In this document: in pieces, positions 13,685 to 28,718 of the stretch
How positions within the stretch are numbered: position 1 is the first letter of the stretch
Layout: each line of letters begins with the position of its first letter
The notes under the pieces: model-generated
The model's database searches: none
What the model was told of the DNA's origin: nothing
The model's input: the letters and a program-made list of their open reading frames with translations, nothing else
Program-made: the position numbers and the translations under genes
Assembly: GCA_001802125.1 (NCBI GenBank)
Contig: MGZK01000058.1
Span: 1 to 34,939 of the forward strand
Source: Geobacteraceae bacterium GWC2_55_20
Lineage (GTDB): Bacteria > Desulfobacterota > Desulfuromonadia > Geobacterales > Pseudopelobacteraceae
Direction of reading: 5' to 3'
DNA length: 34,939 nucleotides

Positions 13685-14842
13685 ATGGAATCCTTTGGTG
13701 ATATGTTTTATACGGAGTTTGCGCCGGCTGTGCGTGCTTCCGCGATTGAGCTGCAAAGCCAGAGGAATTCCATTCAGTTGGAAGAGTTGCTGGATGCCCT
13801 GATGCAGGCCTTGCCCGGTTATGTGATGCTGATCAACAAACAACGGCAGATTGTGGCGGTCAATCCGGCCATGCTCTGCGTAACCGGGGTCGCTGACACG
13901 GCCGAACTGGTCGGTCTGCGACCGGGCGAGGCGCTAAACTGCATCCACTCGGATGATGCCCCGAACGGCTGCGGGACCAGTGAACATTGCTCGGTATGCG
14001 GAGCCGTACTGGCCATACTGGAGAGTCAGCATACCTCCGGTCAGGCCAGTCATGAATGCCATATTGCTTTCAAGGGAAACGAACAGCGTGTAATCGACCT
14101 GAAGGTTTTTGCAACGCCGATTGTCATCAGAGGGGAACAGTTCACCGTTCTTGCCCTTCAGGATATCAGTGGCGAAAAACGGCGGGATGTGCTGGAGCGG
14201 ACCTTTTTTCACGATGTGCTGAATACGGCCGGCGGTATACACGGACTGGCTACCCTGCTTGTCGAACACAAGAACGTACCGTCACACGTCGAGGATGAAT
14301 ACAAGAACTGGCTGGTGGAGATGTCCGGAAACCTGGTGGAGGAGATTCACCATCAACGCAAGCTGATGATGGCGGAGCGGGGTGAGTTTCAGCCTCAGAT
14401 CGTGCCGGTTGCGGTTCGTGACTTGCTGGAAGAGGTGCACAAGCTGTATCGGCATCACGACAGGACACCCGGCCGTGAACTGGTGCTGGCGGATGTGCCG
14501 GACTGTACCTTGTTGACCGACCGGTTGGTGCTGCGTCGCAGTATCGGCAACATGGTGATCAACGCCCTGGAGGCGACACCCATCGGTGGAACGGTAACCA
14601 TTTATGCCACTAAAACTTCCTCCGTTGTTTCCATTAACGTTCACAACGTTGGAGTAATGCCACGCGAGGTGCAGCTGCAGTTGTTCCTGCGTTCCTTCAG
14701 CACCAAGTCCAATGTCGGCCGGGGTATCGGCACATATAGCATGAAACTGTTTTGCGAACGCTACCTGAACGGAAAAGTCTACTACAGAAGCACCGCTGAT
14801 GAAGGAACTGTTTTTACGATTGAGCTGCCCTGTAATCCCTGA
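13685..14842 (+). CDS. PAS-domain sensor histidine kinase with four-cysteine cluster
   Basis: A 385-residue soluble kinase with no transmembrane segments. The start ATG 13685 was chosen over GTG 13679 for its spacing from AAGGGGAAAA. A PAS domain (about 25-160) holds an unusual cluster, Cys 86, 96, 102 and 105 ([13 protein letters not shown]). The phospho-acceptor is His 176 in [11 protein letters not shown]. The C-terminal HATPase domain has the N-box (NMVINALEA), a degenerate G1 box (VHNVGVMP in place of DxGxG), SFSTK and [12 protein letters not shown]. There is no receiver domain or adjacent response regulator, so the partner is unknown. It lies 14 bases after manC. The cysteines could bind a metal or sense redox state; that is inference. 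Confidence 0.87.
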
Positions 14843-14858
14843 TATTTTTTTACACAGA

Positions 14859-14891
14859 TTGTCAACCTCTGCGGTTTTCTAAGGTTGACTA
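14859..14891. promoter_or_regulatory. BirA-type biotin operator
   Basis: TTGTCAACC (14859-14867), a 15-base spacer and GGTTGACTA (14883-14891). The inner seven bases of each arm (GTCAACC and GGTTGAC) are perfectly inverted. The layout matches the known bacterial BirA operator TTGTAAACC-N14/16-GGTTTACAA, and it lies 13 bases before the start codon of bioF. Biotin-loaded BirA would repress the bioF-bioH-bioC operon from here. I could not place a clear -35/-10 pair around it. Confidence 0.85.
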
Positions 14892-14904
14892 CTTCGAGGG
14901 TCAT

Positions 14905-16080
14905 GTGAGTAGATCGATACAGGATGAATTGCAGGAGATCAGCAATAGCGGACTTTTCAGGTCAACCCGTCTGATTACCGGCCGGCAGTCGGCCCGGATC
15001 AGCCATGGTGGACGTGAGCTGTTGATGCTCTGTTCAAACAACTACCTGGGGCTGGCGGATCATCCGGCGCTTGCCAAGGCCGCCATAAACGCGGTCGAAA
15101 TTTACGGAACCTCCAGCGGCGCTTCACGGCTGGTTTCCGGCACCATGGAACTCCATGAGCTGCTGGAAGGCGCGGTGGCCGGATTCAAACGGAGCGAAGC
15201 CGCCTTGGTGTTCAACAGCGGGCACGCCGCCAATACCGGCATAATTCCGGCCCTTGTCAGGCGTGGTGACGTCGTCTTTTCAGACCGGCTCAACCATGCC
15301 AGCATCGTGGACGGCATTCTTTTGTCCGGGGCTCGACTGGTGCGCTATCCGCATAACGACCATTTGCGGTTGTCACGGTTGCTGGACAAGCATCGCGGCA
15401 AGGGGCGCGCCCTGATCGTGACTGATGGTGTATTCAGCATGGACGGCGACATGGCGCCCCTGGTAGAACTGGTTGCACTCAAGAAGGCGCATGAGGCCCT
15501 GTTGATGGTTGACGATGCGCACGGCAGCGGTGTTATCGGAAGCCAGGGCAGGGGCTGTGCCGAACATCTGGGAGTAGCGGATGGAGTCGATATAAAGATG
15601 GGCACATTCGGCAAGGCGTTGGGCAGTTTCGGAGCTTATGCCGCCGTCACGTCCGATATGAGGGATCTGCTTGTCAACCGCTGCCGCAGTTTCATCTTCT
15701 CAACTTCGCTTCCTCCGGCGGTATTGGCGGCATCGCTGGCAGCCCTGGAGCTGGTGCAGTCCGCTGAGGGTGACCTGCTTCGCGACAGAATCCATGCCAA
15801 CGCCGGATATTTTCGCCGTGGCCTGGTCGAGGCCGGATTTGACATTCCGGACGGCTCGACCCAGATCATTCCGCTGATAACCGGAGACTCCGAAACCACG
15901 ATGCGTTTCTCGGAGGAGCTGCTTGCCGAGGGCATCTTCGCCCAGGGTATCCGTCCTCCCACGGTGCCTGCCGGATCCGGGCGGATCCGCTTTACCGTTA
16001 TGGCAACTCACGATCTTGTAGATCTGGCATGGGCAGCCGGCCGCATCAAGGAAATCGGCATCAGGCTGGGAGTCGTCTGA
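14905..16080 (+). CDS. bioF: 8-amino-7-oxononanoate synthase
   Basis: A 391-residue PLP-dependent alpha-oxoamine synthase that condenses pimeloyl-ACP (or CoA) with alanine to give 8-amino-7-oxononanoate in biotin synthesis. Visible motifs are [12 protein letters not shown] near the N-terminus, [10 protein letters not shown]-like [36 protein letters not shown], the PLP-contacting VDDAHGSGV, and [12 protein letters not shown] with the Schiff-base Lys. GlyC-acetyltransferase (kbl) is a close relative, but the neighbours bioH and bioC and the BirA operator favour BioF. The start is GTG 14905 after CGAGGG; the ATG two bases earlier meets a stop at once. The stop overlaps the bioH start by one base. 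Confidence 0.93.
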
Positions 16081-16907
16081 TGCCCTGGTTTGAGAACCGT
16101 TTGGGAGAACAGCTGTGGTACGAAGATTCCGGTAGTGGTGTCCCGCTATTTTTTTTGCACGGCTGGTGCATGTCTTCGGTGGTCTGGCATCGACAGTTCA
16201 GCGGGCTTTCGGATACTTTCAGGCTTGTGGCACCGGATCTGCGGGGGCATGGGAAATCGCGTGGCGCATCCGGACAAATGGATTTCGGTCGTTTTGCCGC
16301 TGACCTGGAAGATCTGATTCATCATCTGGATCTGTCTCGGCTAGTGTTGGTCGGCTGGTCGATGGGAGCCCAGATCGCTCTGCAGTCCTATCGGCAGTTA
16401 CATGACAGGTTGGCCGGCCTGGTGCTGGTTTCCGCCACGCCGTGCTTCACAGCCAAGGATGATTTTCCGTTCGGTCTGCCCCGCAAGGAAGCAGCGGGAA
16501 TGCACCTTAAAGTCGAGCGGAATATCCGGCGGGCGTTGGATGGTTTTCATAGCCGCATGTTTGCCGATGGCGAGATTGTGGATCAGCAGGAGGCGCTGCA
16601 AATCAGGGCGCTGCTTGATTCGGTGGTCCCGCCTGATACCGCTGTGGCCGTTGACTCGCTGGACTCTCTTGCTGGAGCAGACATGCGACCGTTTCTGAAG
16701 GATATTTCGTTGCCGGTCCTGATTCTTAACGGAGACAGAGATGTCATCTGCCTTCCCCAGGCCTCCGACTACCTGGCAGAGCATATCAAATCATTCAGCC
16801 GGAGGGTTTTTGCCGGCTGCGGCCATGCAATTTTCCTCACCCGGTTGCAACAGTTCAATCAAGAGATCATTCATTATGCAGGGAGAATCTGTGATAGCAA
16901 TGCCTGA
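16080..16907 (+). CDS. bioH: Pimeloyl-[acyl-carrier protein] methyl ester esterase-like alpha/beta hydrolase
   Basis: A 275-residue alpha/beta hydrolase. The nucleophile is Ser 94 in GWSMG, the acid is probably Asp 221 in NGDRD, and His 249 lies in GCGHAIF; HGWC near residue 25 provides the oxyanion-hole region. BioH removes the methyl group from pimeloyl-ACP methyl ester, ending the pimelate stage. Sequence alone would allow a generic esterase, but its position between bioF and bioC strongly supports BioH. The start ATG 16080 shares one base with the bioF stop. It overlaps the following bioC frame at its 3' end. Confidence 0.85.
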   Translation: MPWFENRLGEQLWYEDSGSGVPLFFLHGWCMSSVVWHRQFSGLSDTFRLVAPDLRGHGKSRGASGQMDFGRFAADLEDLIHHLDLSRLVLVGWSMGAQIALQSYRQLHDRLAGLVLVSATPCFTAKDDFPFGLPRKEAAGMHLKVERNIRRALDGFHSRMFADGEIVDQQEALQIRALLDSVVPPDTAVAVDSLDSLAGADMRPFLKDISLPVLILNGDRDVICLPQASDYLAEHIKSFSRRVFAGCGHAIFLTRLQQFNQEIIHYAGRICDSNA

Positions 16908-17715
16908 ATCAAAAAAAATTGCAGCCGCATTTCATCAGAGAGCGGCTGATTATGACAAGCACATAGCGGTTCAGAAGAGAGTTGTCGAGAATCTTGTCAG
17001 GGACCTGCGTTCCCATAAGGAATTATCTCCAGGGAACATCCTCGATGTTGGTTCAGGCACCGGTTCGCTGTTGAGCCGATTGAGCTCGATCTGGCCGGAA
17101 GCGTCATTGTGCGGTGTGGACCTGGCCCATAACATGTGCCTGCGTTTGGCCGCCCGGTTGGGAGATACCTGCCTTGTGCTGAATGGTAATGCCGAACAGC
17201 TGCCTTTGAAATCCGGTACATACGATCTGGTTGTGTCTACATCTGCCTTGCAGTGGACTGCCGACCTGTCGCTAGCCCTGCACGAGTTGCGGCGGGTGAT
17301 GAAGCCTGGCGCAGCACTCTCCCTTGCTTTTTTCTGCGAAGGAACTCTGTGCGAGTTGCAAAGATGCATTCGTGAGGCGGTGGGAACTGTTTGCAACAGC
17401 AGGAGTCATGCTGAACGACTGCATAAGTTCAGAAGTGTCGAGGAAGTCGAGGCGATTCTTTCCGGAATGGATTTTGAGAGAGTTGTAGTCAACTGTGAAA
17501 CCGAGACCGACTGGTATGATGATCTTCAGTCGCTGTTGCGATCAATCAGGAACATAGGCGCCGGAACAGTTTCGGGAGGTACGGCGGGAGGATTGGCATG
17601 GCGGGGCATCATAAAAGAAACATCCCGGCTATACCGGGATTATTATGGTGGAAACGGCAAAATTCCTGTTACTTACAAGGTGTTGTATCTGATGGCTGAT
17701 CTTGCGAAGTTATAG
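16900..17715 (+). CDS. bioC: Malonyl-ACP O-methyltransferase
   Basis: A SAM-dependent class I methyltransferase of about 271 residues. It methylates malonyl-ACP so that the fatty-acid machinery can build the pimeloyl chain. The N-terminal IAAAFHQRAADYDKH stretch is typical of BioC. ILDVGSGTGSLLSRL is SAM motif I, GVDLAHNM the acidic loop, and STSALQW the BioC-like motif after motif II. The start is uncertain: ATG 16900 is used here, while GTG 16891 sits closer to GGGAGA and ATG 16876 is also in frame. It overlaps the 3' end of bioH and, convergently, 6 bp of the ArsR-family gene on the other strand. Confidence 0.9.
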   Translation: MPESKKIAAAFHQRAADYDKHIAVQKRVVENLVRDLRSHKELSPGNILDVGSGTGSLLSRLSSIWPEASLCGVDLAHNMCLRLAARLGDTCLVLNGNAEQLPLKSGTYDLVVSTSALQWTADLSLALHELRRVMKPGAALSLAFFCEGTLCELQRCIREAVGTVCNSRSHAERLHKFRSVEEVEAILSGMDFERVVVNCETETDWYDDLQSLLRSIRNIGAGTVSGGTAGGLAWRGIIKETSRLYRDYYGGNGKIPVTYKVLYLMADLAKL

Positions 17716-27806: not shown

Positions 27807-28718
27807 ATGGAACTTTTGGGCAAGACCAATATAGACTTTATCGGCAAGCGCAATATCGCGTTTGTAGTCTCGTCGATTATCGCGATCATCGGTATTATCG
27901 GCATCATCCAGATCGGTCGCGGAGCCGCTAACATGGGAATAGATTTTTCCGGCGGCACGGCCATGCAACTGAAATTCAGCAAACCGTTCTCGATCGCCGA
28001 TGCCAGGACCGCGCTACACAAGCACGGGATTGCCAAGGCCGACCTGCAAGAGATCAAAAACGGCAACATGCTATTGGTCAAGATGGCGGGAGCCGCTGTC
28101 GGCAAACAATCGGAACTGGTTCAGACCTCTTTCAGGACCGAGTTTGCCGACAACCCCTTCACCGTTGAGAGCTCAACGGAAATCGGCCCTTCAATCGGTG
28201 ACAAGTTGCGCAAGGATACACTGATAGCCGTAGCTCTTTCACTTCTGGGCATAATTCTGTATATTGCCTGGCGCTTTGATTTAAAGTTCGGCATCGGGGC
28301 TACGATCGCCACCATGCATGATGTCCTGGCGATGGTGGCGGTATTCTTTGTGCTGAACAAGGAGATCAACCTGCTCTTTATTACTGCTGTTCTGACAATC
28401 GCCGGCTATTCCCTGACCGATACAGTGGTCATATTCGACCGTATTCGCGAAAACCTGCACAAAAACCTCAAGGGCGCGATGCACAACATCTTTAACGGCA
28501 GCATCAACGAGGTTTTGTCTCGTACCATTGTAACCTCTTTGACGACCTTTATAGCTGCAGCTTCACTGTTTATATTCGGCGGAGAAGTCATCCATGATTT
28601 CTCACTTGCGCTATTGATCGGAATCGGAGTTGCCACCTATTCATCGGTGTTTGTAGCCAGCCCGATCGTAGTGTTGCTTGAAAACCGGGCTTTGGCGAAG
28701 CAGGTTGAAAAAGCCTGA
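27807..28718 (+). CDS. secF: Protein translocase subunit SecF
   Basis: A 303-residue partner of SecD with six predicted membrane helices. MGIDFSGGTAMQLKF follows the first helix, and TDTVVIFDRIREN and SLTTFIAAASLFIFGG are the family signatures. The start ATG 27807 follows AAGGGGAG. It forms the membrane complex with SecD and YajC encoded upstream. The length is typical of the family. Confidence 0.97.
   Translation: MELLGKTNIDFIGKRNIAFVVSSIIAIIGIIGIIQIGRGAANMGIDFSGGTAMQLKFSKPFSIADARTALHKHGIAKADLQEIKNGNMLLVKMAGAAVGKQSELVQTSFRTEFADNPFTVESSTEIGPSIGDKLRKDTLIAVALSLLGIILYIAWRFDLKFGIGATIATMHDVLAMVAVFFVLNKEINLLFITAVLTIAGYSLTDTVVIFDRIRENLHKNLKGAMHNIFNGSINEVLSRTIVTSLTTFIAAASLFIFGGEVIHDFSLALLIGIGVATYSSVFVASPIVVLLENRALAKQVEKA

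Follow-up and report, generated by a model that had tools for sequence, protein, structure and literature searches.

Gene content of the locus and the palindrome in front of bioF

The window (the whole stretch of 34,939 nucleotides from Geobacteraceae bacterium GWC2_55_20 that was analysed here) carries biotin synthesis genes in the order bioF-bioH-bioC, preceded by genes for a manC-type nucleotidyl transferase and for a histidine kinase, the latter ending at position 14842; an ArsR-type gene is located downstream. The coordinates are presented in Table 1. Against the NCBIfam model TIGR00858, bioF scored 451.6 bits (cut-off 426.45). It starts with the GTG at 14905; an ATG at 14903 is immediately followed by TGA. 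The bioH and bioC ORFs scored below the cut-offs of TIGR01738 (126.9 vs 206.95 bits) and TIGR02072 (163.7 vs 184.95 bits), respectively; thus, both names rest on the best match and on operon position. If its first ATG is taken, the bioC ORF overlaps bioH by 167 bases. Since the BioC match starts at residue 63, the true start is probably downstream, maybe near 16,910. The products of bioC and bioH make pimelate, and that of bioF starts ring assembly. Of 19 named loci examined (L012-L030), 17 keep the order bioF-bioH-bioC, and L026 and L029 show bioF only. The BioF of the window is 92-93% identical to the BioF of two metagenome-assembled genomes, Deltaproteobacteria bacterium E10_concoct.bin.77_sub and Pelobacter sp. 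GS8, Pelobacter being a member of Desulfuromonadales (NCBI taxonomy).

Table 1 Features around the predicted operator in front of bioF (window numbering)
Feature	Position	Strand	Basis or remark
Run of seven T	14845..14851	+	Just 5' of the operator; putative role
Predicted BirA operator, TTGTCAACC-N15-GGTTGACTA	14859..14891	+	Sequence, shuffles, genome scan, genus conservation
Gene-far arm of the operator, TTGTCAACC	14859..14867	+	Identical nine letters in 32/34 genus bioF operators
15-base spacer of the bioF operator	14868..14882	+	Without a -10-like hexamer at offset 4
Gene-near arm of the operator, GGTTGACTA	14883..14891	+	T at base 8, a relaxed position
GAGGG, likely ribosome-binding site of bioF	14896..14900	+	Sequence
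bioF, 8-amino-7-oxononanoate synthase, GTG start	14905..16080	+	TIGR00858, over cut-off
bioH-like alpha/beta hydrolase	16029..16907	+	Best match TIGR01738, below cut-off
bioC-like malonyl-ACP methyltransferase ORF	16741..17715	+	Best match TIGR02072, below cut-off

The intergenic region contains the palindrome TTGTCAACC-tctgcggttttctaa-GGTTGACTA, which starts 17 bases past the histidine kinase stop and is followed by CTTCGAGGGTCAT and the bioF GTG. The preliminary description had read it as a BirA operator, and its letters, coordinates, 15-base spacer and distance of 13 bases to the bioF start were all confirmed on the sequence, as were the perfectly inverted arms GTCAACC and GGTTGAC. At its outer ends the site reads TT (left) and TA (right), the latter in place of the AA of a full palindrome. 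It deviates from the BirA operator pattern TTGTNAACC-N14..16-GGTTNACAA at a single position, base 8 of the right arm, which is T instead of A, and biotin synthesis genes lie directly behind it. The pattern TTGTCAACC-N13..18-GGTTGAC has one match in the window and none in 100 dinucleotide shuffles.

A second predicted operator in front of bioB-bioD-bioA

The genome (4,550,560 bases, 186 contigs, 99.88% complete) was scanned with the pattern TTGTNAACC-N14..16-GGTTNAC, which occurs in two places, the bioF site and C48:61791-61824 before bioB; the reversed control gave no match in the whole genome. Read towards the gene, the C48 site is TTGTAAACC-N16-GGTTGACAA, ends 50 bases before the presumed bioB ATG and is closer to the consensus than the bioF site. 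The genes behind it are bioB (399 bits, over the cut-off), bioD (157.8 vs 83.3) and bioA (548.7 vs 405). A search for the same palindrome before other bio genes, as proposed in the preliminary description, therefore yields one further strict site, and both bio operons are predicted to be BirA-repressed.

Since bioB-bioD-bioA has a predicted operator of its own, enzymes encoded outside the window fall under the same signal, and the earlier remark that control is limited to the pimelate-forming half of the pathway does not hold genome-wide. For the locus in the window it was nearly right: it applies to bioC and bioH, but not to bioF with its role in ring assembly. BirA control limited to bioF-bioH-bioC throughout the genome is very improbable, given the closer-to-consensus operator before bioB-bioD-bioA and the sites in all bioB upstream regions of the genus (see below).

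Looser searches were dominated by background. When two mismatches were allowed in the N15 core, which has 12 fixed bases, the whole genome gave 128 forward matches vs 114 in the control; such rules drown in noise, so that only near-perfect sites are meaningful. With at most one mismatch, 4 places were found at N14 (control, 2) and 10, including the bioB site, at N16 (control, 3). No additional BirA targets could be separated from noise among these matches and among the N15 matches listed. The next best operator-like place in the window, TTGAAAACC-N16-GGTTGAAAA at 28678-28711 (score 15), falls within the terminal part of a SecF-type gene and is probably due to chance.

The biotin ligase

A BirA with an N-terminal DNA-binding domain had been predicted from the palindrome, and the genome indeed encodes one on contig C28, where birA is flanked by nadC and the gene of a type III pantothenate kinase. 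In this protein of 325 aa, residues 7-58 match the Pfam domain HTH_11 (PF08279) with 56.2 bits (cut-off 25), and the ligase catalytic domain PF03099 (72.2 bits) and the C-terminal domain PF02237 (30 bits) also exceed their Pfam cut-offs; with catalytic and C-terminal domains and an N-terminal HTH, it belongs to the group II biotin protein ligases. The NCBIfam ligase model TIGR00121 was passed (186.8, cut-off 83.1), the narrower TIGR00122 (birA_repr_reg) matched residues 18-75 below its cut-off (54.4 vs 70), and the full-length BirA models of NCBIfam also matched below theirs. The nearest solved chains carry the names biotin ligase or BirA, among them 4ha8 (1.8e-47) and 1bia (1.8e-38), the latter being the BirA protein of E. 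coli. In the genus, the N-terminal region aligned unbroken in all 36 full-length proteins, a count that leaves out the fragments of G022 and G026.

No operator-like site around birA (C28:22000-28000) scores above 12, and no BioY gene was found in the genome. A second gene with PF03099, on contig C135, does not appear to encode another BirA: its best NCBIfam models are lipoate-protein ligases (all below cut-off), with no biotin ligase among them, and it adjoins a lipA that passes its cut-off.

Conservation of the two predicted operators among relatives

The genus set comprised 39 genomes, including the genome studied, with BioB found in 35 (unmatched in G020, G023, G035 and G038) and BioF and BirA in 38 each (both unmatched in G038). 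Upstream regions were scanned with spacers of 12-18, and a score of at least 15 of 17 was counted as a site; 37 bioF regions remained after exclusion of G026, whose bioF match lies at a contig end and starts at residue 124. Sites were present in 34/37 bioF regions and 35/35 bioB regions, and in the 108 reversed genus loci (408,512 bases, spacers 14-16) none reached 15, the best score being 14. Three genus genomes have a bioF without the operator, namely L230 (G004), L231 (G008) and L232 (G014); the last of these retains an isolated right arm, GGTTGACCA, a short distance upstream of bioF.

One question is whether the palindrome could be a product of chance or the site of another regulator, for which the histidine kinase gene upstream and the ArsR-type gene downstream might be considered. 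The absence of matches in the shuffles, the conservation in the genus, the same motif before bioB and the agreement of the letters with the BirA signal published in PMC545781 make this explanation extremely unlikely.

Up to class level, a strict pattern, which forces the outer end of one arm, either one, to be intact, was found in 114 of 147 genomes, including the genome studied, compared with 5 of 147 in the reversed control. Thirty loci with the strict pattern, from 30 genomes outside the family but in the same order or class, were examined, one per genome; 28 of these sites lie directly before bioB (19) or bioF (9), and L095 and L103, with no bioB or bioF start within 700 bases, were assigned to neither gene. 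In a set of 80 named bioF relatives from many phyla, a score of at least 15 within 300 bases upstream was reached by 12, and most of the others score no better than shuffled sequence. With 12 of 80 relatives carrying a site, the arrangement appears to be confined to near relatives and a few others.

Promoters and entry of transcription

In all 35 genus bioB sites, the near arm contains TTGACA, the -35 consensus. In 24 of them TATCGA, which matches the -10 consensus at 3 of 6 positions, follows 17 or 18 bases past it, and a -10-like hexamer that agrees with TATAAT in at least five of its six bases occurs at spacer offset 4 in 11 of the 22 genus bioF operators with N15, although these counts are not independent because the sequences are related. 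The spacer hexamer is absent from the site in the window and from the four nearest by BioF identity (G001, G005, G011 and G024). No sigma-70-like promoter with -35 and -10 boxes 16-18 apart was found over the operator in 14700-15000, and the best -35/-10 pairing of the bioF site itself is weak; an overlap of operator and promoter would therefore be deduced from the relatives. TTTACA at 14849-14854, overlapping the T-run, is a possible -35 box. T-runs of at least six were observed within 20 bases 5' of 29/34 genus bioF operators vs 0/35 bioB operators, in some relatives after a terminator-like hairpin.

No terminator was called within 14700-15000 either; together with the short gap after the kinase gene, this makes read-through into bioF possible. 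The operator could then act mainly as a road-block in a longer manC-histidine kinase transcript, with BirA halting RNA polymerase before bioF rather than hiding a bioF promoter, and the order manC-kinase-bioF does recur in 4/19 named loci (L012, L013, L014 and L016). We consider this unlikely, because the operator stays when the upstream gene changes (manC lies directly upstream without a kinase match in L015, L017 and L018), the spacer holds a -10-like hexamer in half of the genus N15 bioF operators, and at least four relatives (G023, G028, G030 and G031), judged by eye, have a hairpin and a T-run just 5' of the operator.

Spacer lengths and lopsided arms

Spacers of 14, 15 and 16 bases are mixed even within single genomes: in the genus, bioB sites have 14 in 16 genomes, 15 in 14 and 16 in 5, and bioF sites have 14 in 11 genomes, 15 in 22 and 16 in 1. 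If all of these sites are bound, one BirA would have to accept spacers from 14 to 16. Co-evolution of the bioB and bioF spacers was unsupported, with equal lengths in 16/31 genomes vs 12.3 when shuffled (P = 0.09, kinship ignored).

The two operators are lopsided in opposite senses, the near arm being strict at bioB and relaxed at base 8 at bioF. At bioB, the gene-near arm is GGTTGACAA in 34/35 genus sites and the far arm varies; at bioF, the far arm TTGTCAACC is kept in 32/34, and 9/34 have A at base 8 of the near arm, the other 25/34 having a different base there. Over the 16 fixed positions, the bioB site is closer to the consensus than the bioF site of the same genome in 18 of 31 genomes, equal in 13 and worse in none. 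The pattern recurs in the 28 assigned sites outside the family, where 19/19 bioB sites have A and 9/9 bioF sites have G at base 8 of the near arm, the complete near arm GGTTGACAA is present in 17/19 bioB sites (by our own count), and the far bioB arm has C at base 2 in 9/19.

Tentatively, and with considerable doubt, the two operators in this order of bacteria might form a graded pair. Each would combine a strict with a looser arm, oriented oppositely relative to the two genes, since the strict near arm at bioB doubles as a -35 box while base 8 of the near arm at bioF is off consensus; with rising biotin, a single BirA, accepting spacers of 14-16 bases even within one genome, would silence bioB-bioD-bioA first and bioF-bioH-bioC later. 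This would be the sole new part of our interpretation. The lopsided operators and mixed 14-, 15- and 16-base spacers provide a small testable handle on how the BirA dimer fits its operator.

Predicted regulation and comparison with known BirA systems

The evidence obtained comprises the two sites and their degree of conservation, the genes that follow each of them and a biotin ligase with an HTH. The palindrome before bioF is, very probably, an operator of the biotin repressor BirA, with a second one before bioB-bioD-bioA, by which the pathway would be shut when biotin is plentiful; for a Desulfuromonadales-type bacterium, this gives genome-wide sequence support to predicted BirA control of both biotin operons. 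The ligand, the dimerisation and the repression itself we infer from the BirA systems of E. coli and B. subtilis. Once all biotin-accepting proteins are filled, BirA would retain its product biotinyl-5'-AMP and dimerise, and the two winged HTH domains of the dimer would grip both arms of the palindrome. Bound 13 bases 5' of the bioF start, the dimer would cover the start region of bioF-bioH-bioC and exclude RNA polymerase; over the -35 box of bioB it would block initiation likewise, so that the whole pathway would be off at plentiful biotin.

This scheme follows what has been described, as BirA holding biotinyl-5'-AMP dimerises and binds both arms, and the B. subtilis protein required both biotin and ATP for binding and did not bind a lone half-site (PMC4016012). 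According to the same source, DNA complexes of E. coli BirA and its operator had not yielded usable crystals as of 2014. BirA regulons with the core bioABCDF are reported for gamma- and deltaproteobacteria in PMC5343134. In the titles and abstract openings of the openly licensed literature, we came across no experiments that tested BirA in these bacteria.

The bioF site is an ordinary further member of an already described regulation: a 2004 study predicted for Geobacter a BirA regulon that has sites in front of bioF and bioB (PMC545781, Table 1). As given there, G. sulfurreducens and G. metallireducens have two sites per genome, before the same two genes, and the Geobacter bioF site TTGTcAACC-[N14]-GGTTgACgA has nearly the same letters as the site in the window. 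Base 8 of the near arm is likewise not A at bioF (GGTTgACgA), and the bioB arm reads aGTTgACAA (PMC545781). The Geobacter spacers are 14, however, compared with 15 (bioF) and 16 (bioB) here, and the table gives positions of -182 and -64, whereas the bioF site in the window ends 13 bases before the start (PMC545781).

B. subtilis similarly has a BirA with an HTH and several operators per genome, but its three operators, at bioWAFDBI, yuiG and yhfUTS, are of very similar affinity as reported in PMC4016012, and the two found here both precede biotin synthesis genes. The bioA/bioB operator of E. coli K-12 (L234) has the same arm signal and a spacer of 16, like the bioB site of the genome studied; there, a single site, perfect in both arms, lies between the divergently oriented bioA and bioB, in contrast to the two separate operators described here.
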